Source: Sneathiella glossodoripedis JCM 23214
Lineage (GTDB): Bacteria > Pseudomonadota > Alphaproteobacteria > Sneathiellales > Sneathiellaceae
Assembly (NCBI RefSeq): GCF_000616095.1
Contig: NZ_BAMS01000004.1
Coordinates: 124,001 to 188,000 of the forward strand
DNA: 64,000 nt
Direction: 5' to 3'
Shown here: positions 5,707 to 40,945 of the stretch, one piece after another
Layout of the letters: every line of letters begins with the position of its first letter
Position numbering within the stretch: the stretch's first letter is position 1
Translations under genes and position numbers: made by a program
Notes under the pieces: generated by a model
Seen by the model: the letters and a program-made list of their open reading frames with translations, nothing else
The model's database searches: none
Told to the model about the DNA's origin: nothing

Positions 5707-5734
5707 GGGCCCCGCATAGCGAGGCCCTTTTTTT
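5707..5734 (+). terminator. Rho-independent terminator after the small acidic protein
   Basis: A 9-bp GC-rich stem with one mismatch (5707-5715 with 5719-5727), a three-base loop and a run of seven T. The T-run overlaps the stop codon of the convergent HD-GYP gene. Confidence 0.85.
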
Positions 5735-7805
5735 ATTGCTTTGCATTTTTGGCGGCTTCTTCCAGCCTGTCCCTGAAAGACAAACCTTCAGGTGACTGCA
5801 AGAAGCTATCAAATGCTTCCACAACCGCAGGGTCATATTTTTCAGGATTGGTGCGAAACACCTCCATCGCTTCTTCAACGCTAATGGCCTGCCGGTATGA
5901 TCTGGGGGATACACGCGCGACCAAAATGTCAGCCATGCCGAGCACGCGAGCCGAAAGATCAATTTCCTCGTCTTTGAGCTGTCTTGGATATCCAGACCCA
6001 TCGCGGCGTTCATACATCTGGCCAACCGCTGTAATGACAGCCTGATCAATTTCCATTTCGCTCAGCAGGTTTTCTGCCTTGCTGACATGCCCTTGCATAA
6101 TCTCCATTTCCTTTTTCGTCAGGCGACTTTCTTTCGTTCTGATCTTGGAAGGAATTGAAATTTTTCCGATTTGCGAAAGGTTGGCCCCTGTCAGCAAGGT
6201 CTGCTTTGTTTGCTGAGGTAACTTGAGGATGTCTGCGACATTGCCGGCAATCTCGCTCATATGGTGGGAATGGCCCGCCAGATGTGGGTCATTTTCTTCC
6301 ATCATACGAACCAGAATTGATATGGTCTTACGACCTAATTCATCCTTTTGGCGCTGATTGATTATGTAATCCGTAATGTCACCGCAGACGGTTACAATTC
6401 CCATGAATATACCGTCATCATCCAGTAGCCGGGTCTTTTCAACACGCAGAAATTTCTCAATCCCGCCTTTGTCAACTTCAACGATTTCGCTGGTCTTCTG
6501 ACCGCTGTTCAGCACGCGTTCATCCATTTCTGCGAATTTTCGAGCGACCTTGTCACCAAACAACTCGCGGTCAGATTTGCCCGGAATTGACTGTTCTGGA
6601 AGACTAACGAACTCTGCCAGGGATGGATTGGCGTAAACATACTTGCCTGAAACGTCTTTAAGACTGATCAGGTCATGAACTGTATTGTTAATACTGCCAA
6701 GGAGGCGTCGCTGAGCATTTATCTGAGTTGCCAGATCCTTGTACTGACCAGCCATATCCTTTGCACTTTGAGTCCGCAATGCGAACCAAATCCCGCTGAC
6801 TACGCTAACAATTACGATAAACGCACTGGCGGCAAGCCCAAAAACTACATAGCGGTAGGTTTCAAGTTCTTGCAATGCGACATTAACCGGAACAGTTCGC
6901 AACAATGTTAGGGCAGTGTTTTCGACATCTGCACCCACTGAAAAAACAGCGAGAGATTGCCCGGGTAGAGTGCGGGCGCCAAATTCCTTGATCCCCTCAA
7001 GCGGTAACGCTTCTTCTTCACTGGCGAAATAGGGAGCGTAGTTGGTATTAATTCGAATGAGCTTGTCATTCTGACGCTGATAAAGATGTGTTTGTTCTCC
7101 CGGCTCAGACAGTTTTGAATTTCTCGTAAATTCAGATAGCTTTTCAGCCGCAGAAACTGTCATCAGAAAAACACCTACATTCTGCATCTGTGAAGATCCG
7201 TTGATTTGAGCGGACCGGACGGGAATTAGAAAGTCAAAAACCAACTCACCATTGGTTTCGCGCAGTGGCGTTGTCCCAACTGTAGCGGCGTCATAACCTT
7301 CTTGAGCCAGACGTCGTTGATCATCCGTAAGAGCAGGAGAGCCGGAGGATGCGAGATACGCCCGTCCGTCTTTGCCCACCATATAGGCGGCGACCAGATT
7401 ATTTTCCTGAACAAATCGCGTGATTGCATTTTGCATGTAAGGAAGCTGTTCCTGTAGCGGAGCTGACAGGTTGTCGCCGTCCAAGCTATTGATTTCGGTG
7501 GCAAAAAGTTGAATTAGTGGGTTGCTGGTCAGCACATTGGCTTGCTGGCCGGTTTGTTCAACCCATGTGTTAATGACATCGGCCTTACCATTTATGGTAA
7601 GTTCCTGTCTCGTCTGTAATTCTCCGACAATTTCCTGTTGTTTTTCGGAAATTAAAACGCTGGATACCCAATAACAGACAACAAGCAATGCAATCGCCAG
7701 AATGCCAGCCGCAATTTTGGATTTTTTGTGTTTCGGGCTTTCCTGTTCAGGAATATCTTTGCCCATATACGTGTTCAGGTTCAGGTTTGACATTGCTTCT
7801 GTCAT
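5733..7805 (-). CDS. Membrane sensor with PAS and degenerate HD-GYP domain
   Basis: 690 residues. Membrane spans at about 30-52 and 325-347 enclose a periplasmic Cache-like sensor domain, followed by a PAS domain (about 370-480) and an HD-GYP domain (about 497-665). HD-GYP enzymes hydrolyse cyclic di-GMP, but here the metal-binding HD pair is Ser544-Gln545 (ANLSQIGKI), the HHE motif reads MYE, and only DGSGYP survives. It is therefore predicted to bind or sense rather than cut. Its ATG overlaps the stop of the upstream BTLCP gene (ATGA), so the two are translationally coupled at the end of the type I secretion operon. I infer a LapD-like receptor role, controlling the protease from the inner membrane. 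Confidence 0.85.
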   Translation of the reverse strand: MTEAMSNLNLNTYMGKDIPEQESPKHKKSKIAAGILAIALLVVCYWVSSVLISEKQQEIVGELQTRQELTINGKADVINTWVEQTGQQANVLTSNPLIQLFATEINSLDGDNLSAPLQEQLPYMQNAITRFVQENNLVAAYMVGKDGRAYLASSGSPALTDDQRRLAQEGYDAATVGTTPLRETNGELVFDFLIPVRSAQINGSSQMQNVGVFLMTVSAAEKLSEFTRNSKLSEPGEQTHLYQRQNDKLIRINTNYAPYFASEEEALPLEGIKEFGARTLPGQSLAVFSVGADVENTALTLLRTVPVNVALQELETYRYVVFGLAASAFIVIVSVVSGIWFALRTQSAKDMAGQYKDLATQINAQRRLLGSINNTVHDLISLKDVSGKYVYANPSLAEFVSLPEQSIPGKSDRELFGDKVARKFAEMDERVLNSGQKTSEIVEVDKGGIEKFLRVEKTRLLDDDGIFMGIVTVCGDITDYIINQRQKDELGRKTISILVRMMEENDPHLAGHSHHMSEIAGNVADILKLPQQTKQTLLTGANLSQIGKISIPSKIRTKESRLTKKEMEIMQGHVSKAENLLSEMEIDQAVITAVGQMYERRDGSGYPRQLKDEEIDLSARVLGMADILVARVSPRSYRQAISVEEAMEVFRTNPEKYDPAVVEAFDSFLQSPEGLSFRDRLEEAAKNAKQ

Positions 7806-8488
7806 TGTTTTGCCCCCGCTGCGTCACCCAGTTGAGAAAACTGGCTGGGGATATGTGCCCAGCGAGTATTTTCATTTACGGAATAATAGGGGACGTAATA
7901 ATTGACGAACTCTTCTCTTAGAACTGTGTCGTTCTGAGAATCCAGAATATAGGATTTAGAGCTCAGTTTGACGCTCAATACGGTATGCGTCACTCCGCGT
8001 AAAACATCATTTGTGACAACAATCCGCATCTGATCGGCGGAAAAGCCTAATTCACGAAGACTTACATATTTCATGATTGCAAAATCTTCGGAATCTCCTC
8101 CATTGGTAATAAATTCCAGTGGGGTTGCCCAGTAATCAGACTGTTTGTACAGATCCTGATCTGCAATATGTTGCCATTTGTTGATGAAACTGTTGATTTG
8201 CCTCATCGCGATTGATCTGTCGCTATGTTCCAGTTCCTGAATCTTGGTACGCCAAAGGGTCATCTGTTGGGAGTCGCACTTCAGAATATCCTCATCGCAT
8301 CGTTTGGACGCTTCGCGCAGTTTGTCGAAACCGGCGAGTGAGCGCTGCCACTGGGGAAGAGCCGACAGATTTCCGGAGGCAATTTCCAGCGAACCAAAGA
8401 GACCAGGCTCCTGAGGTGATGCGGTTGATTGGGCCGGAGCTGATAGAATTACAGTTATGCCAAGGGCGGTGATAAAGGCTTTCATCAT
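7802..8488 (-). CDS. LapG-like transglutaminase-like cysteine peptidase homologue (BTLCP), Cys-to-Ser
   Basis: 228 residues with a signal peptide (cleavage near ASA/TAS, residue about 24). The BTLCP (COG3672, LapG) family uses a Cys-His-Asp triad to clip adhesins at the cell surface. Here the usual GDCEDYA block reads GGDSEDFA, so the nucleophile is Ser (codon TCC) while His (VTHTVLSV) and Asp (ILDSQND) remain. It is thus probably inactive or altered. Start ATG overlaps the end of the HlyD gene and its stop overlaps the HD-GYP gene, both as ATGA-type junctions. Its intact paralogue lies at 14.4-15.1 kb. A decoy or regulatory role is inference. Confidence 0.85.
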   Translation of the reverse strand: MMKAFITALGITVILSAPAQSTASPQEPGLFGSLEIASGNLSALPQWQRSLAGFDKLREASKRCDEDILKCDSQQMTLWRTKIQELEHSDRSIAMRQINSFINKWQHIADQDLYKQSDYWATPLEFITNGGDSEDFAIMKYVSLRELGFSADQMRIVVTNDVLRGVTHTVLSVKLSSKSYILDSQNDTVLREEFVNYYVPYYSVNENTRWAHIPSQFSQLGDAAGAKQ

Positions 8489-9827
8489 CTCTCCCTCAGC
8501 GCGTTATTTTTGGTTTTCAGAATTGGTTTGAGAATATAATCCAATACTGATTTATGGCCCGTTAGGGTATCCACCGTTGCAATCATACCAGGTTTGATAG
8601 GATAAACCTGATCACCACGACGAAGTGAATTCTCTTCAGTACGAACAATGATTTTGTAAAATGTCTCACCCGTTTGTTCATCAACTATAGTATCCGGCTG
8701 ATTCGCTCCAAAGTTGCAGGTAAACCGCCATAGATGGAAAAGTCATAAGCCGTGATCTTCACTGTTGCCTTTTGTCCAGGCCGAAGGAAGGCAATGTCCG
8801 AAGGTCGAATTTTGGCCTCAACTAACAGGCTATCCTCAATCGGAACAATCTCCACAATATCCTGACCCGGGCGAACAACACCTCCAATTGTCTGAATTTT
8901 CAGCTCTTTGACCTCACCTTTGAGGGGAGAGCGGACATCGGTTCGTGTAACCCGGTCTTTCGCCGCGAGGATTGATTGGCGCACGCCTTCAAATTCGGCA
9001 CGTGTTGCACTTAGCTCCTGTGAAGCCAGACTTCTGAAATTCAGGATTTTCTCTTCAATGCGCTGGTTAGCTTCCTGCAATGCACCCTTTGCTCTGGGCA
9101 ATGCCAGCTCGGACGCTGAAATCTGCCCCTCTAAGTCGTTAATCTCTCTTTTGAGCTGCAGAAGTTGTACTTTTGGAACAATACCTTTTTCGGCCAGCGG
9201 TTCCGTAATCGCCAGTTCTTCATTGACGAGCGCTATGCTCGATTTCAGTTGTTTCAGGCGTCCGTTGATTTCCGCAATTTCCTGTTTTCTCTGTTGTGCC
9301 TGCTGACGCAGGATTGCAATTTGTGACTGCAATTCGGCCTGCCGTGCATTGAACAGGTTTTGCTCACGGATCGTAATATGCTGCCCTTCCGCGAGAAGTT
9401 CAGGCGGAAACTCGATGCCCTTACCTTCACTTTCAGCTTTTAGGCGGGCAATACGCCCGAGAAGATTTAGATAATTTGCTTCGATTTCACCAAAGCGTGC
9501 CGCAAATCCTGTATCGTCAATCCTCAATAGAATTTGACCTTTTTCGACGACCTCACCTTCACGCACCATCAACTCTTTCAGGATACCACCTTCCAAATTC
9601 TGTATGACCTGAACTTGTGACGATGGAATAACTTTGCCATCTCCGCGTGTCACCTCATCAAGAATTGCATTGTCAGCCCAAATATAAGCTGCGACAAAAA
9701 AGGCGATAACACCGAACAGGAGCAGCATGGATTTAGGGTTCGGCCCCTGCATTTTTGCGGCTACCACATCGGATGCAAAATCGGTATCGCTCCACTCTGT
9801 TTGACTAGACATTTTATTTCCTGCCAT
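8485..9827 (-). CDS. Type I secretion HlyD/LapC-family membrane fusion protein (frameshifted)
   Basis: Periplasmic adaptor linking the ABC exporter to TolC. Membrane span at residues 33-51, then the first lipoyl half (IQNLEGGILKELMVREGEVV), a long coiled coil of about 200 residues, the second lipoyl half and a beta-barrel. The frame breaks near 8696: one missing base after ERIS ends the reading frame early. Restoring it continues through DTIVDEQTGETFYK to a stop at 8485, giving about 447 residues, the family norm. Starts at 9827 and 9812 both have an A/G-rich site. It lies 28 bp after the exporter gene and is coupled to the downstream BTLCP gene. Confidence 0.9.
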
Positions 9828-9855: not shown

Positions 9856-12162
9856 TTAAGCTGATTTAGTTTTCTTGGAGGGGCGCTGCCCGACCTTGAG
9901 GACTTCATCGCGTGGACCATCTGCAACAATTTTGCCATGTCCCAAGACGATAATTCGATCAACAACCGAGAAAAGTGACGTGCGGTGTGTAACGAGCACA
10001 AGCGTCTTGTTCTGTGCATAGGTTTTCAAGCGCGTAATGAACTGCCGTTCCGAATTTAGATCCATGGAACTCGTGGGCTCATCAAACATCAGAATAGGAG
10101 GGTTGGGCAGTAAAGCTCTCGCAATACCAAGTGATTGACGTTGACCGCCAGAGAGGGTTGCTCCTTTTTCACCAACCTGCAGGTCATACCCATGAGGGTG
10201 GCGACTGACGAATTCATGGACGCCCGCAAGTTTGGACGCTTGCAAAATCATTTCGTCATCTGCTTGAGGATGGCCCATAGTAATGTTCTGACGGACTGTT
10301 CCGTGAAACAGGGTCACATCCTGCATGACACTACCAACTGCACGACGAATATCCGACGGATCAATCTGACGAATATCTGTGCCATCGATTAGGACCGCAC
10401 CTTCGTCCGGTTCATATAAGTTGATAAGCAGTCTTGATACTGTTGTTTTACCGGACCCTACCGGGCCGATAATAGCAACCTTCTCGCCTGGACGAATTTT
10501 AAAGGAAACATTGGAAAGCGCTGGTAACTCCGTTCCCGGATATTTGAAAGTGACATCTTTAAACTCAATCTCACCTTTAACATTTGGCCGGCTCAGTTGT
10601 CGCTTGTCAGCAGAGCGTTCAACCGGTAATGCCATAATTTCGTTCAGGCCTTTCAAGGCCACAATGGCCTGATTAAGACGAGTGAGTAACGCTGCAATCT
10701 GACCAAGTGGCGCCATTGTCCGTCCAGTCAGAATTGTTGAAGCAATCAGTGCACCGATGGTCATGGTGGAATCGGGTTGTGACATCAAATAAACACCATA
10801 GACCACGACAAATACTGTCACCAATTGCATTGCAGCGGCAGACAGATTGATGCCCAATCCAGCAAAGAAACGGGATTTAACACTTGTTTGAGCGGTCTGC
10901 CCTACGAAACGTTCCCATTCTTTTTGCATGTGGCCTTCAACACCGAGGCTTTTTACCGTGTCCAACGCCGAAATGGTTTCGATTATCACACCATGTTTTT
11001 GTGAGCTTTCCTCTGTGTTCTTGGCAACAGTTCTGCGCATTGGCAGTTGCAGAAACAGGCCAATACCAATAACCACTGGGATGGCAATGGCAGGGACAAT
11101 CGCAATTGGTCCTCCGATCATATAGATGATCAGCAAAAAGATACCCAAGAAAGGAAGATCTACAATCGCGGTAACTGTGGCGGACGTGAAGAAGTCACGC
11201 AAGGTTTCAAATTCCCGCAAATGGTTTGCAAACGCACCTGAAGAAGAGGGGCGTGCTTTAACCTGAATGTTGAGGACTTGCTCAAAAATGCGACTGGATA
11301 AAAGTACATCAGCCCTTTTTCCTGCATTATCAACAAAATAGGATCGCAGCGTTTTTAGAATCAAGTCGAAACAGATCACCGTAATGACACCGAATGCCAA
11401 AACAGATAGGGTCTCAAGTGCTTTATTGGGTACGACGCGATCATATACGTTCATTATGAATAGCGGACTGGCGATCGCAAAGCTGTTGATCAGGAATGCC
11501 GCAATTATGACCTGCGAATATGTCGGCCAGAATTTCCACATGGTTCCCCAGAACCACGACCCTTGCCGTTGTTCGAGTTCTTCATCTCTATCGACGCGGA
11601 ATTGAAAGTTGGGCCGAACAAAAATAGCGTATCCCGCGTAAAGCTCTTGCAATTCGGCAAGTGCAATACTCTGAGAACCTTCACCTGTTTCCGGGAAAAT
11701 AACTTCTGCGCTATTGGCATTTCTTTTTAATAGAATGCAGGCCTTTTTCTCTTTGAGCATGAGTACTGTCGGCAGAACGACATCTGGGATTTTTTCGAGT
11801 TTTCTGTTTGTTATTCTGGCGCTGATTCTAACCCGTTCCGCGGCTCGTACGAACAGATTTGGCGTGAGGCGGTTATCCTCCAACGGCAAACCATAGATCA
11901 GCGCATCCGGTGTACGGGGGTCTTCGAAAATTTTTGTAAGTGCGACCAGACAACCGAGCAACGGGTCATGATCCGTTCTTGAAACTTCTGACAGGCGAAT
12001 GTCCCAGCTGGCGGGTTGGGTGTTGTCTTCTGACTTGCGTTGACCGTCAGCCAGGCTATCTTCAATTGTGCCGGCTGCGTTGCGAAGATGTTCGCTGGTT
12101 TTCAGATCTATTGCGCTGGTTTGCTCTGAAACCGTGTCCGCATCACTGCGTTTATCTGTCAT
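9856..12162 (-). CDS. Type I secretion ABC transporter, LapB/LssB-like
   Basis: 768 residues. An N-terminal C39-like domain (about 50-180) lacks the peptidase cysteine, as in exporters of RTX proteins and large adhesins. Then come about six membrane spans (210-480) and a nucleotide-binding domain with Walker A GPVGSGKTT, signature LSGGQRQSLG, Walker B ILMFDEP and H-loop VTHRTS, all intact. The first 50 residues are acidic and low complexity. The pattern fits the LapB/LssB group that exports adhesins. It is the first gene of an operon with HlyD, a BTLCP and a degenerate HD-GYP sensor, and is divergent from tolC across an 834-bp spacer. Confidence 0.93.
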   Translation of the reverse strand: MTDKRSDADTVSEQTSAIDLKTSEHLRNAAGTIEDSLADGQRKSEDNTQPASWDIRLSEVSRTDHDPLLGCLVALTKIFEDPRTPDALIYGLPLEDNRLTPNLFVRAAERVRISARITNRKLEKIPDVVLPTVLMLKEKKACILLKRNANSAEVIFPETGEGSQSIALAELQELYAGYAIFVRPNFQFRVDRDEELEQRQGSWFWGTMWKFWPTYSQVIIAAFLINSFAIASPLFIMNVYDRVVPNKALETLSVLAFGVITVICFDLILKTLRSYFVDNAGKRADVLLSSRIFEQVLNIQVKARPSSSGAFANHLREFETLRDFFTSATVTAIVDLPFLGIFLLIIYMIGGPIAIVPAIAIPVVIGIGLFLQLPMRRTVAKNTEESSQKHGVIIETISALDTVKSLGVEGHMQKEWERFVGQTAQTSVKSRFFAGLGINLSAAAMQLVTVFVVVYGVYLMSQPDSTMTIGALIASTILTGRTMAPLGQIAALLTRLNQAIVALKGLNEIMALPVERSADKRQLSRPNVKGEIEFKDVTFKYPGTELPALSNVSFKIRPGEKVAIIGPVGSGKTTVSRLLINLYEPDEGAVLIDGTDIRQIDPSDIRRAVGSVMQDVTLFHGTVRQNITMGHPQADDEMILQASKLAGVHEFVSRHPHGYDLQVGEKGATLSGGQRQSLGIARALLPNPPILMFDEPTSSMDLNSERQFITRLKTYAQNKTLVLVTHRTSLFSVVDRIIVLGHGKIVADGPRDEVLKVGQRPSKKTKSA

Positions 12163-12996
12163 TATATATTTTCCTGCTGGAAAGCATCTTCATCTGTGAA
12201 AGAACACACTGTTCCTTCTTGATGGAGCCCCCTCTTAAACTGCTCTTCTACAAGTTATACAAGCTCACCTCTGACGTGGTGAGTTGTCCCCAAATTTGTT
12301 TGTTACCTGTTACTGAACTGATGCATTCATTATTGCGTCCACATCTGCATTGAAGTTCCATTTGATGAAAAACATGTTAATAAAATTCATTCAGATAAAA
12401 GATCCCCCCGTTAACCAAGGTTTCGCCAGGTTTTACCAGGCGTTTTCATCGCAGTTTGCTTCCAAAATCCATCAATTGGATCCAAAACAACGCCGTCTGG
12501 TCAGAATCACCTGCATTTATCTATCTTGGAAAAAAAATTAACCATATTTATCCGCAGTTTTCCAGCACTCTATATAGCGCTTCATAAAATAAAGACAGAG
12601 ACGTTGAGCTAATGGCGTGATTTTGAGGCTTCGAATAAACTCCGAAAATTTCGAATCATTTAAGTCATACTTTTATAAAATTTTATGCATGTGAAGATAA
12701 ACCCAACTGGAAATGACAAAAAGCTGTGGGTTTTGTGTTGAAATTTTATTAGTTTACCTGAAGCTGATAAAAACGTTGCATAAACGACACAAAATTATGG
12801 GGGAGCCGAAAATCTGACGCCACTGCCGTATAAATCTTGCTTGTTTGCGGAAAATACAGTTATTTTGTTTATGAAATTTTGATCATTTGCGTTCAAACCC
12901 TGTTTGACATAAAACACAGAAACAGGTACTCGGTCTGCAAAATGATTATCAAGTACAAGTACCTTTGAGACATTAAACTTGAATTGGGAGAGGGGC
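12163..12996. other. 834-bp divergent control region between exporter operon and tolC
   Basis: No convincing gene is seen in either strand. The DNA is AT-rich, especially 12530-12800. It holds an inverted repeat at 12259-12287 and an imperfect one at 12424-12442 (CGCCAGG and CCAGGCG around TTTTA). Promoters for both directions must lie here, and the length leaves room for several regulator sites or a long leader. A short minus-strand frame at 12795-13007 overlaps tolC and looks spurious. Confidence 0.6.
12259..12287. promoter_or_regulatory. Inverted repeat, candidate operator
   Basis: CTCACC (12264-12269) and GGTGAG (12278-12283) are exact complements around an eight-base spacer, extended outward by ACAA and TTGT with one unpaired base. 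It sits about 100 bp upstream of the exporter start codon. No T-run follows. A dimeric regulator site is plausible; the LuxR-type regulator at 17.4-18.4 kb is one candidate binder. Confidence 0.4.
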
Positions 12997-14334
12997 ATGA
13001 AGTCCAAGTTGAGCTCGCTTAGTGCTCGTAAGCTTATTACAACGAGTGTTATTGCGACTGTTTTCGGCAGTGTTGCGGCAATGCCGGTTCACGCTGGATC
13101 GCTCGCGGAAGCCGTTCAGGCAACTGTAACTAATTATCCGGAAATCGGCGAAGCATCTGCTAACCGCCGGGCTATTGATCAGGAGCTGGAGCAGGCTCAC
13201 GGTCTTTATTATCCTTCAGTCGATCTGGCGCTAGGTGCTGGTAAAGAATGGACCGATACGGTTTCCATCGACGACGAATGGTTGACACGCACAGAAAGCA
13301 GCATCTCACTGTCGCAGACATTGTTTGATGGTGGTGCACGCTCAGCCGAGGTTGATCGTCAGGAAAATCGCGTTGACGGTGCCGCCTACCGTGTCCGCGA
13401 ACGTGCGGAAGCAATCGGTCTGGATGTAGTTCAGGCTTACCTTGATGTTCTACGGAACCTGGAAGTTGTTAATCTGGCTGCAGAAAACGTGGAAATTCAC
13501 AAGCGGACGTTGAAAGAAATTCAGGATCGTGTAGATGCTGGCCAAAGCGGTGTCGGTGACGTACAGCAGACTGAAGCTCGGGTTTCAGCGGCTGAAGCTG
13601 CACTTGTTGAAACACTTCGTCAGCTTGATGCATCTGAAATTGCTTACCGCCGCCTTGTCGGTGAAGCTCCTGTGAATCTGACATTGCCAGAATTTAACGA
13701 CGGCGTACTTCCTGATACTTTGGAAGACATCATCGCAATTGGCATGGAAAGCAACCCGGATATTCGTTTTGCAAAAGCAGACGTCAGAACTTCTGATGCA
13801 GAAATCAAAGCAGCGGAAGCTAACTTCTATCCAACTGTCGCTCTTGAGCTGGACGCAAGTTCTGATCATGACACGGATGGTGTTGAAGGTCACAATGACG
13901 ACTTCACTGCAATGGTTCGTCTCCGCTATAACCTGTATCGTGGTGGTATTGACATTGGTCGCCAGCAGGAAGCCGTTGAGCGTGCTTCTGAAAGCAAGCA
14001 GCGCCAGATGCGTTTTGAGCGTCTAGTTGAAGAAGAAATCCGCGAAAGCTGGAGTATTCTTGCAAGGTCAAAAGCGCGTGCAGCAGCACTGAGCGATCAG
14101 GTTGTTGCGAACGGACAGGTTGCAGCAACTTACCGTCAGGAATTTGAAATTGGACAGCGTGATCTTCTGGATATGCTGGACTCAGACAATGAACTGTTCA
14201 ACTCACGTACAGCGCTGGCAACTGTTGAATATGCAGTTCTGTTCGCCAAGTACCGCCTGTTGGCTACAATGGGTCGTTTGAACAGCACTCTTGGAGTTAC
14301 ACTTCCTGAAGAAGCTTTACCAACTAACGGTTAA
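12997..14334 (+). CDS. TolC-family outer-membrane channel, LapE-like
   Basis: About 445 residues. The ATG at 12997 follows a strong GGGAGAGGGG site and opens a clear signal peptide ending near VHAGS; the in-frame TTG at 12979 would disrupt both. Two repeats of the outer-membrane efflux protein domain alternate long helices and short beta segments (for example the YPSVDLALGAG and YPTVALELDASS strands), as in TolC. It completes the type I secretion channel with the divergent ABC-HlyD pair. It has its own terminator just downstream, so it is a single-gene unit. Confidence 0.93.
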   Translation: MKSKLSSLSARKLITTSVIATVFGSVAAMPVHAGSLAEAVQATVTNYPEIGEASANRRAIDQELEQAHGLYYPSVDLALGAGKEWTDTVSIDDEWLTRTESSISLSQTLFDGGARSAEVDRQENRVDGAAYRVRERAEAIGLDVVQAYLDVLRNLEVVNLAAENVEIHKRTLKEIQDRVDAGQSGVGDVQQTEARVSAAEAALVETLRQLDASEIAYRRLVGEAPVNLTLPEFNDGVLPDTLEDIIAIGMESNPDIRFAKADVRTSDAEIKAAEANFYPTVALELDASSDHDTDGVEGHNDDFTAMVRLRYNLYRGGIDIGRQQEAVERASESKQRQMRFERLVEEEIRESWSILARSKARAAALSDQVVANGQVAATYRQEFEIGQRDLLDMLDSDNELFNSRTALATVEYAVLFAKYRLLATMGRLNSTLGVTLPEEALPTNG

Positions 14335-14413: not shown

Positions 14414-15064
14414 TTATCTGGGTTTGTAACGCCACCAGCCATTTTCGTTGACGGCATAGATTGGGCGATAGTGTCGAATTCGTTTTGAATCGATAACCAA
14501 ACCAATCTGGTTATCCAAAACCATTTTTTTGTTTTCAAACTCAACTGTTAAAATTGCATGTGCAATACGAAGGTTCATATCCTGCAGAACTAGAATCTGC
14601 ATTTCCTCTGCTTTCCATCCGAGTGCACGCAACGTGAAATATTTCACAATGGCATAATCTTCACAGTCACCGAATTTCGCAAAAAACTCTTTAGGAATGG
14701 CCCAATAGTCTTTTACCCCCCAGTTTATGGGATCCAGAATGTAGCGATAAAGATTGATATAGGAATTGACTTTCGCCAACTGAAATTTCTTGGGCTTATC
14801 TTTAAGTTCATCAACCAGTTCCTGCCATTTTTTATAGGCGCAGGCATTTAACTGACCGTTGCCACAGGCCCCAGGTTGGTCCTTGTAGGTATCCAGAACC
14901 TTGCGCCATTTTGGAAATGGTTTGAGATCCTTATGCTCATACGCCTTGAAGCCGAAAATACCAACGGCTTCCGCTGAAGGAATATGTGGCACAGCTAACA
15001 GCCCGACCGCCAATACGGACGCCTTTAGGAATTTCTGACTACAAACTAGGGTTTTCAATTTCAT
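14414..15064 (-). CDS. LapG-like periplasmic cysteine protease (BTLCP), intact triad
   Basis: About 216 residues from the ATG at 15064, which opens a signal peptide ending near SAEA; a longer frame from 15121 would bury it. The catalytic Cys is in FGDCEDYAIVKY, His in IAHAILTV and Asp in MVLDNQIG, so all three residues of the LapG-type triad are present. Family members cleave the N-terminal retention module of type I secreted adhesins in the periplasm and are held by an inner-membrane receptor. It converges on tolC and is divergent from the second degenerate HD-GYP sensor. It is clearly a paralogue of the Ser-substituted protein at 7.8-8.5 kb (shared DYWA-P-EF and YY-VNEN blocks). Confidence 0.9.
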   Translation of the reverse strand: MKLKTLVCSQKFLKASVLAVGLLAVPHIPSAEAVGIFGFKAYEHKDLKPFPKWRKVLDTYKDQPGACGNGQLNACAYKKWQELVDELKDKPKKFQLAKVNSYINLYRYILDPINWGVKDYWAIPKEFFAKFGDCEDYAIVKYFTLRALGWKAEEMQILVLQDMNLRIAHAILTVEFENKKMVLDNQIGLVIDSKRIRHYRPIYAVNENGWWRYKPR

Positions 15065-15248: not shown

Positions 15249-17364
15249 ATGACTGACATTGATCAAGAACTTGGTAATAGCAAAAAAACGCATCGCTTTA
15301 TCTGGCTTGCAGCGATCACGCTGTTCATTGTCGTGATTGCCGGTATTTGGGGTACGGTTTCATTTGTTGAGCAACAGCGCGAGCGCGATATCCGTGCGTG
15401 GGAAATTCAGCTTGGAATTGTTGCGGACAGTCGCCTTGCAAGTGTTGAAGAATGGCTTCGCGAACAGAAAGAAGCAATTGTTGCCCTTGCAGAAAATGAA
15501 AGCCTTCAGGTTTATTTGACACAGCTTGTTATTGATACAGGTGAGAATGGTAGCAAAATAACAGAAGTCCCTGAAGCAGGGTATTTGATAAACCTGCTGA
15601 ATAATCACGCCGTAATTAGCGGTTTTTGGGAGCCACCAGAGCCTGAAATCAGAGCAAATGTAGCTCGGCCTGGTCGGGCAGGGATTGCCTTGACGGACGC
15701 GACTGGGCAATTACTGGTTTCCAGTGGAAATATGCCCCCGATGAACCCTGCCATTCGCGCAGGCATGGCGGCTGCAGACAGCGGCGTTTCTGCGGTGATT
15801 GATATTTATGAAGGCCTTGACGGTGAGCCTATAATGGGGTTCGTACATCCAGTCTATGCCGTTCAGCAGGATGGAAATGCAGATGAAATTATCGGTTTCA
15901 TCGTTGGCATCAGAACAGTGTCCAAATCGCTGTTTCCAAGGTTGATGCAGCCGGGGTCAACGCATCAGACCGGTGAGACTTATCTCGTCAGACAAAACGG
16001 CAATCTTACCGAATATATTTCGCCACTTGCTGATGGTACACCGCCTTTGAAGCGAAAATTAAGTGCCGATGACGAACGGGCAGGAAGTTTTGTGATCAAA
16101 AAACCGGGGCTCTTCGGTCGAAAAATTAATTATATGGGGGATGAGGTTCTGGTGACTGGGCGCGCCGTGACTGGCGCACCATGGTACCTTGTTCGAAGCA
16201 TAACAACACTTGAGGCGTTATCTGAATCCCAGCAGCGTTTAAATACCATGCTCGGTGTGTTTCTTCTATTAATTCTGGGGGTTACCGGAACAGTCATTGC
16301 GGTCTGGCGCCATGGAACTTCCATTCGCGCAGCCGAACTCGCCACCAAATATAAAAAGGCAGCTGAAGACTTACGTCAGAAATCCGAATTCCTCAAAGTG
16401 GTAACTGATCGCCAGCCGACAGCAATTGCAGTCTTTGACAAAGAAGATAAATTTACGTTTGCAAACAAGGTTGCTGCTGATAATGCAGAGATGGATCAGG
16501 ACGAGATTATTGGCCGCCGATTGTCAAATGTCTTTGACCAGGATGTTTCTAAAAATCTGACGACCCTGTTTCATCAGACGCGCAGTGATAACAGCATCCA
16601 TTCGCAATTGGTAACTGTGCATCAAGAGGGACAGGACAAAATCTGGAAGTCTGACATCATTCCACTTGTTCGGCCCAATGAACAGAGAAGTGATTTGCTG
16701 GCGGTATTTCAGGATATAACTGATGTGGTGACGGAGCGCGAACAGCGTGAGATGGTGCTGAGAAATCTGGTATCCACTTGTTGCCTTTTTGGACCGGCGG
16801 GATCCATACTCGGCGAACCAGTCCGCTCGGGTTGCCGAGGTAGGGGTCGCAATCGCTGAAGAACTGCAATCTTCTGACAAGGTCATCAGAACCGTTGATA
16901 TTGCCGGTAATTTGATGAATTTGGGTAAAATTCTGGTTCCTCCCGAAATTCTGACCAAAGCAGGTAATCTGACAGAGGAAGAAAAAACCATTGTAAGAGA
17001 CAGTCTTTTCGCCAGTGCTGACCTGTTGGAAGGAGTGAAGTTCAATCTTCCCGTGGCCGAAACACTAAGACAATTACAAGAACATTGGGATGGAAGCGGG
17101 CAACCTCGTGGTCTGTCTGGAACCGCAATTAATGAAGCTGCCCGCATAATTATGGTGGCAAATGCTTTTGTTGGAATGGTTAGTCCACGTGCTTATCGGG
17201 CCGCGCTCGACATGAATAAGGCCATCAGCATTCTTATGGAAGATGCCGATAAGAAATATGACCGCAAGCCCATCAGCGCGCTGGTTAATTTTCTTGATAA
17301 TCGCGGCGGACGTGAACAATGGGCGCATTTCAGCGATGACCTGGATAACCAGAGCGAACGCTAA
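15249..17364 (+). CDS. Membrane sensor with PAS and degenerate HD-GYP domain (frameshifted)
   Basis: About 705 residues once joined. Membrane spans at about 17-38 and 333-353 flank a periplasmic Cache-like domain; a PAS domain follows (about 385-500), then HD-GYP. The frame changes near 16776, between NLVST and LVAFLDRRDPYSANQ, by one extra or two missing bases. In the HD-GYP part the HD pair is Met-Asn (NLMNLGKI), HHE reads LQE, and GYP reads GQP, so cyclic di-GMP hydrolysis is not expected. It resembles the sensor at 5.7-7.8 kb in layout and in the VSPRAYR block. It is divergent from the intact BTLCP gene, forming a second sensor-protease pair. Confidence 0.83.
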
Positions 17365-39592: not shown

Positions 39593-39605
39593 GGGGGATA
39601 TAGAT

Positions 39606-40945
39606 ATGTCGTTTGAACCGAAAAGTCCGGTTGTAAAATGGGTTGATAGCAGACTGCCGATCATCGGTATGATGCATCACGCTCTATATGACTACCCGAC
39701 TCCAAAAAATCTGAGCTACTGGTGGACATTTGGCTCACTTGCCGGATTTATGCTGGTTGTGCAGATCGTAACAGGTATCGTCCTGTCCATGCATTACACA
39801 CCGCATGTGGATTTGGCGTTTAACAGTGTCGAGCATATCATGCGCGATGTGAACTATGGCTGGCTAATTCGCTACATGCATGCGAACGGTGCTCAATGTT
39901 CTTTATTGTCGTGTATTTGCATATTTTCCGGGGCCTTTACTATGGCTCCTACAAGGCACCACGTGAATTGTTGTGGTGGCTGGGTTTGGTCATCTTCCTT
40001 CTGATGATGGCAACAGCCTTTATGGGCTATGTGCTTCCTTGGGGCCAGATGAGCTTCTGGGGTGCGACAGTGATTACCAACCTGTTCGGTGCAATTCCGG
40101 TTGTTGGTGATCCGATCGTAACATGGCTGTGGGGTGGTTTCTCTGTTGATAACCCAACACTGAACCGTTTCTTCAGCTTGCATTACCTGCTGCCATTTGT
40201 CATCGTTGGCGTCGTGATCCTGCATATCTGGGCGCTGCATACAAATGGGTCCAACAACCCAACAGGTATCGAAATCAAAGACAAACAGGACAGCATTCCG
40301 TTCCATCCTTATTACACAATCAAGGATCTGTTCGGTTTGGGCGTGTTCCTGATTTTCTTCTCAGCATTCCTGTTCTATGCACCAAATTATCTGGGGCATC
40401 CGGACAACTACATTCCGGCCAATCCTTTGGTCACACCTGCACATATTGTTCCTGAATGGTACTTCCTGCCTTTCTACGCAATCTTGCGGGCTGTTCCGGA
40501 CAAGCTGGGCGGAGTTCTGTTGATGTTCGGTGCGATCGCTGTTCTCTTTGCGTTGCCATGGCTTGATAAGAGCCGGGTTCGCTCCGCACGCTATCGCCCA
40601 ACCTTCAAGCAGTTATTCTGGATTTTCGTTCTTGTTTGTATTGGTTTGACGTATTTTGGTGCGCAAAGTACAGACGGGTGGGTGATTAAATACGTTGAGA
40701 TGGTACCATCCTTGGATAAAAATGGGGAGCAGATCGTCAAAGACGGTAAAGTCGTAATGGAAGAAAGTATCATTGGCTTGTCAAATGTATGGGCTAGTAG
40801 AATTTTGACCTTCTATTACTTCTTCCATCTTCTAATCCTGCTGCCACTGGTGGGACTGTTTGAGAAACACAAACCGTTACCGTCGAGTATTTCTGAAGCG
40901 GTTCTGGATAAAAAATCTGGCGCAGAGGAGGCAGGCAATGCTTAA
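39606..40945 (+). CDS. petB: Cytochrome b of the bc1 complex (frameshifted)
   Basis: About 447 residues with eight membrane spans. Haem-ligand His pairs lie in the second and fourth spans (MHYTPHVD precedes the first; [16 protein letters not shown] and [21 protein letters not shown]). The [13 protein letters not shown] motif marks the Qo site. The frame breaks near 39893: one missing base between HANGA and [14 protein letters not shown]. Long loop of about 40 residues between the last two spans is typical of alphaproteobacteria. Ends overlapping petC by 8 bases. Confidence 0.96.

Follow-up and report, generated by a model that had tools for sequence, protein, structure and literature searches.

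A LapG/DvhG paralogue lacking its catalytic cysteine, conserved in a predicted duplicated Dvh-type adhesin-release system of Sneathiella

Within the 64-kb stretch of the Sneathiella glossodoripedis genome analysed here (the window), two genes encode LapG-type proteins, and one of them has serine where the family has its catalytic cysteine, which raises the question of whether this protein is damaged, cuts in another way, or is kept for something other than cutting. The initial annotation had described both genes, and upon re-reading the sequence we confirmed its account: the Cys-less gene, here called psG ("pseudo-DvhG"), carries the motif GGDSEDFA with the serine codon TCC and keeps His and Asp, while its paralogue, here called G2, has GDCEDYA together with His and Asp. 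All coordinates in that annotation were correct, and the strand, which it did not give, is minus for both genes (Table 1). In psG, Ser133 replaces the nucleophile and the Cys-His-Asp triad is incomplete; His168 and Asp183 are retained, as are the calcium ligands Asp132 and Glu134 that flank the Cys position. We found no report of a pseudoprotease in the LapG/DvhG family in the open-access literature, and the loss of the nucleophile throughout a clade that keeps the gene asks what LapG-type proteins do besides cutting, be it binding to the receptor, the adhesin or the pump.

Table 1. Features of the psG locus, in window positions
Feature	Position	Strand	Basis or remark
DvhD1 (receptor 1), dCache-PAS-degenerate HD-GYP, HD = SQ	5733..7805	-	PDB matches to DvhD
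ATGA overlap, psG stop and DvhD1 start	7802..7805	-	sequence; translational coupling
psG, Cys-less LapG/DvhG paralogue	7802..8488	-	228 aa, PF06035
Ser133 codon TCC at the catalytic Cys position	8090..8092	-	Ser/Asp/Gly/Pro across 27 orthologues
ATGA shared by the psG start and the HlyD stop, once the frameshift near 8699 is corrected for	8485..8488	-	sequence
HlyD/LapC-type T1SS adaptor	8485..9827	-	TIGR01843, 323.9 bits; ORF called to 8685
LssB/LapB-type T1SS ABC transporter	9856..12162	-	TIGR03375, 956 bits, cut-off 693
TolC/LapE-type outer membrane channel	12979..14334	+	TIGR01844, 305.7 bits, cut-off 225
G2, active-type DvhG/LapG paralogue, GDCEDYA	14414..15064 (ORF to 15121)	-	PF06035, 62.8 bits
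DvhD2 (receptor 2), dCache-PAS-degenerate HD-GYP, HD = MN	15249..17364	+	divergent from G2

The family assignment of psG is clear from both profile and structure comparisons. A profile search matched it to Peptidase_C93 (PF06035, MEROPS C93), a family with a transglutaminase-like fold, at 63.6 bits with a cut-off of 27, and its score against the NCBIfam LapG equivalog NF045674 (83.1 bits) lies under the cut-off of 320, as does that of the Cys-bearing G2 (87.6 bits). The AlphaFold model has a confident LapG fold (pLDDT 87.8), for which the closest structure is LapG 4fgq (Z 19.2, rmsd 3.1 over 157 residues, 31% identity), and the N-terminus, on inspection, shows residues 1-23 as a probable signal peptide. 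Judged by its sequence, psG is a LapG-fold protein that is catalytically dead.

Orthologues of psG were drawn from genome contigs and from all 25 family genomes analysed. The question of whether relatives share the loss, posed by the initial annotation, has a uniform answer: the cysteine is gone in all 27 genomes with a psG orthologue, replaced by Ser in 24 of them and by Pro in the sister genus (G001), Asp in one locus (L011) and Gly in another (L012). Within Sneathiella, whose psG carriers are marine bacteria, the serine is invariant, and every serine codon in the orthologues examined is TCN. That the window's TCC is one base from TGC, as had been pointed out, is true yet misleading, since the substitution is old and clade-wide. 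A sequencing error or a mutation of a single strain was rejected because the cysteine is absent from 27 genomes. Among 120 C93 proteins examined, 92 have the cysteine and the other 28 are the psG orthologue, with one genome counted twice; this survey covered the class-level C93 matches above the roughly 50 with the lowest scores, and further dead copies elsewhere are possible. Every G2 protein examined retains GDCEDYA. Of the 27 genomes with psG, 24 also have a Cys-bearing copy, which is G2 in 23 of them and a different active copy in the genome of the Asp form; in the other three (G013, G018 and G024) the contig stops at psG or just past it. In the genome with the Asp form (G192), the dead copy (locus L011, equivalent to L136) lies beside a receptor gene without T1SS genes nearby, and the active copy is found with a T1SS on a separate contig (L145).

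The assembly of the window contains several probable indels, which lends some initial support to the reading that psG is a relic in decay or that its serine comes from faulty sequencing. DvhD2 is split into two frames by a 2-base deletion, relative to every full-length relative, near 16764, just before the HD-GYP domain and outside any homopolymer (within the genus these relatives are 702-734 aa in a single frame); HlyD lacks one base near 8699 relative to its relatives, so that its last 60-odd residues lie in another frame, ending at the psG start codon; and a cytochrome b gene (39600-40940) appears frameshifted near 39890, with its N-terminus in a different frame. With three conserved genes affected within 64 kb, including one for core respiration, these indels point to assembly errors rather than decay, and none of them lies in psG. 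Against the relic or error reading, the serine is common to 24 genomes, the psG frame is open in all genomes that cover the gene, and dN/dS is low, which leaves this reading hardly credible. The Ser133 finding is independent of the assembly of the source strain.

Alternatively, psG could be an active serine protease that uses Ser133 as its nucleophile, as might be supposed from the invariance of the serine in Sneathiella and the retention of His and Asp in most copies. However, the same position holds Asp, Gly or Pro in sister lineages, the His is replaced in two copies (Gln in G006, Glu in L012), and both calcium ligands are missing in nine Sneathiella copies, with motifs such as GGGSRDFA and GGRSRDFA; the sister-genus protein reads DPL and has lost the calcium-ligand Glu. 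Mutational results from characterized homologs also argue against it: the C192S and C192A forms of the Caulobacter protein HvyA are non-functional (PMC4241560), and DvhG with its Cys or calcium ligands mutated is inactive (PMC13090378). We therefore consider serine protease activity very improbable. HvyA is likewise an alphaproteobacterial periplasmic BTLCP protein, but it requires its Cys and controls the capsule (PMC4241560), whereas psG is naturally without Cys.

Turning to the system in which psG would act, the best PDB matches of DvhD1 are to Desulfovibrio vulgaris DvhD, namely 9rc0 (5e-51), 9rbz and 9rc2 (dCache). DvhD is a dCache-PAS-HD-GYP receptor for c-di-GMP in which HD reads SQ; it does not hydrolyse c-di-GMP, and it controls the LapG-type protease DvhG (PMC13090378). 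In Sneathiella, every copy of receptor 1 carries SQ; receptor 2 has MN (LN in one copy) with further metal ligands also lost. The c-di-GMP contact residues of DvhD that are kept are L577, Y621, R650 and Y652 in receptor 1 and L577, M646, R650 and Y652 in receptor 2, the others being changed. A LapD-type receptor was rejected, as the search for the LapD output domain LapD_MoxY_N (PF16448) was negative in all 25 family genomes; among 80 genomes across the phylum, the same search was positive in 24. With DvhD as the nearest solved relative of the receptor, HD lost, and LapD not found in the family genomes, the system is, by sequence comparison, of a duplicated Dvh type rather than of LapD type, with a receptor homologous to DvhD. 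The initial annotation had suggested that psG might compete for the receptor; put in that way the suggestion finds no support, since each protease-like gene has a DvhD-type receptor gene of its own, and LapD was not found.

The resemblance to DvhG/DvhD (PMC13090378) extends to the pairing of a LapG-fold protein with a dCache-PAS-HD-GYP receptor bearing SQ, to the presence of a T1SS and an adhesin with a retention domain (in the present case a candidate adhesin with a putative retention domain), and to the lack of LapD. The differences are that the module is duplicated here, that the copy in the T1SS operon is Cys-less throughout the clade, and that the second receptor has MN in place of HD. 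With LapG/LapD of Pseudomonas fluorescens and CdgS9 of Legionella (PMC4359373), the shared features are the protease fold (Z 18-19) and the style of cleavage site, and the c-di-GMP-controlled inside-out logic of LapG/LapD is likewise predicted here, but the Sneathiella receptor is not a GGDEF-EAL LapD and psG is catalytically dead. The Dvh type was worked out in sulfate reducers; this locus places a duplicated adhesin system of that type, with HD-GYP receptors, in Alphaproteobacteria.

No giant adhesin was found within the window, and the candidate of the source genome lies elsewhere, on contig C10 near 131 kb. Candidates were present in 23 of the 25 family genomes, with the main matches being open frames of mostly 1000-2100 residues in which a FecR-like region is followed by Calx-beta or RTX repeats, in two architectural types. 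The FecR-like region aligns with the LapA retention profile (Retention_LapA) over profile positions 4-68, and because these matches are weak, partial and under the cut-off, we refer to the proteins as candidate adhesins. Between this region and the repeats, most have a helix-like stretch, DP and then P[EQ]AG, with PAAG in one candidate of the second type; this LapG-like site compares with helix-DP-[TAP]AAG in the Dvh type.

A survey of 386 alphaproteobacterial genomes, with about 80 loci examined, shows two old C93 paralogues. The first belongs to the T1SS operon, where a receptor-1-like gene accompanies it, and the second is divergent from a receptor-2-like gene. The first (G1, the orthologue of psG) occupies the psG slot of the operon and is Cys-bearing except in the Sneathiella lineage and in two related metagenome genomes, so that Cys-bearing and Cys-less orthologues in one slot offer a natural comparison. 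G2-type proteins form a clade with 100% support, and a recent Sneathiella-specific duplication giving rise to psG and G2 was rejected (p 0.00025). When all Cys-less proteins were constrained to one clade, the likelihood was above that of the unconstrained quick tree (p-AU 0.895), and FastTree groups the Cys-less rows, including the Asp form, at a low support of 0.48. A single loss of the cysteine is the simplest reading of these sequences, with two losses possible. As a separate observation, a metagenome alphaproteobacterium has a tandem pair of LapG-type genes (L014, 10043-11456), both of which are Cys-bearing.

The dN/dS of psG since the loss of the nucleophile is roughly 0.04-0.24 in the closest genome pairs, the same range as for G2, although these values are rough, with synonymous sites near saturation; by these estimates, psG and the active G2 are under purifying selection of similar strength. 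Together with the clade-wide loss and the Cys-bearing copies in most psG genomes, this bears out the proposal of a pseudoenzyme maintained beside an active paralogue. In comparison with Cys-bearing relatives, constraint in psG is relaxed at the former active site (the YGxxDYWA stretch, the calcium ligands and the His strand). Residues 73-86 in helix 2 (SQQMTLWRxKIxEL), the most marked of the newly constrained stretches, are almost invariant in the dead copies and not in the Cys-bearing relatives, and RWAHIP at the C-terminus is newly invariant. Since the cysteine was lost long ago and the gene is under selection beside a working copy, its control of attachment probably works through binding and not through cutting. 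We consider it likely that psG is an ancient pseudoprotease conserved as a non-catalytic regulator of the duplicated Dvh-type switch for adhesin release. Conserved inactive relatives of proteases are retained as regulators beside active ones in the case of the iRhoms, which are of another fold and kingdom; the likeness lies in the retained inactive relative and does not imply a shared mechanism.

As to how such a regulator might work, psG would be exported to the periplasm, would still dock on its own receptor DvhD1, and could act without cutting through binding under the control of c-di-GMP, occupying the retention domain or the cleavage segment of the adhesin and thereby slowing or gating its release by G2. 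That psG binds the retention or cleavage region under the control of receptor 1 and so protects the adhesin from G2 is our tentative preference among specific mechanisms, at somewhat below even confidence. A bolder form of the proposal, in which a c-di-GMP receptor and psG would make up a second, non-proteolytic arm, with psG bound to the retention domain or cleavage segment and guarding it from G2 and the two receptors opposing each other in setting release, is to be held slightly more loosely. The suggestion of a decoy or shield role is plausible as a hypothesis. As a point against the favoured reading, the stretch ahead of the active site (YGxxDYWA in active forms) and the His strand are less conserved in the dead copies, which could mean weaker substrate contact.

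The neighbourhood of psG bears on two other readings. Gene order is identical in every complete family locus (LssB-HlyD-psG-DvhD1, with TolC on the opposite strand and G2 divergent from DvhD2), and psG adjoins the DvhD1 gene in every locus covering both. One alternative is a receptor-side partner or decoy, in which psG either has DvhD1 as its binding partner or is a competitor of G2 at DvhD2, altering the state of the receptor or the release of G2 and leaving the adhesin untouched. The constant neighbourhood and the 4-base overlap with the DvhD1 gene are in keeping with this, as is the site pattern of DvhD1, which is the same in lineages whose G1 retains its Cys, so that the receptor appears unchanged by the loss of catalysis; a change of the HD-GYP site concurrent with the loss of the cysteine was rejected on the same grounds. 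On the other hand, G2 has a receptor of its own, and in the published model the DvhD-binding and substrate surfaces of DvhG partly overlap (PMC13090378), for which reason receptor and substrate roles may be inseparable by sequence. We judge an exclusively receptor-side role to be rather unlikely.

The second alternative looks to the other flank of the gene. Because psG always lies directly downstream of HlyD, in one operon with the adhesin export pump (T1SS), it might be a T1SS accessory that serves in the periplasm as an assembly factor or a retention clamp, bound to HlyD or to the exported adhesin. The overlap of the HlyD stop with the psG start and the psG-specific invariant helix (SQQMTLWR) would fit such a role, but active G1 orthologues occupy the same slot, so the position of psG was inherited and can be explained without a new role, and we regard an accessory function of this kind as improbable.
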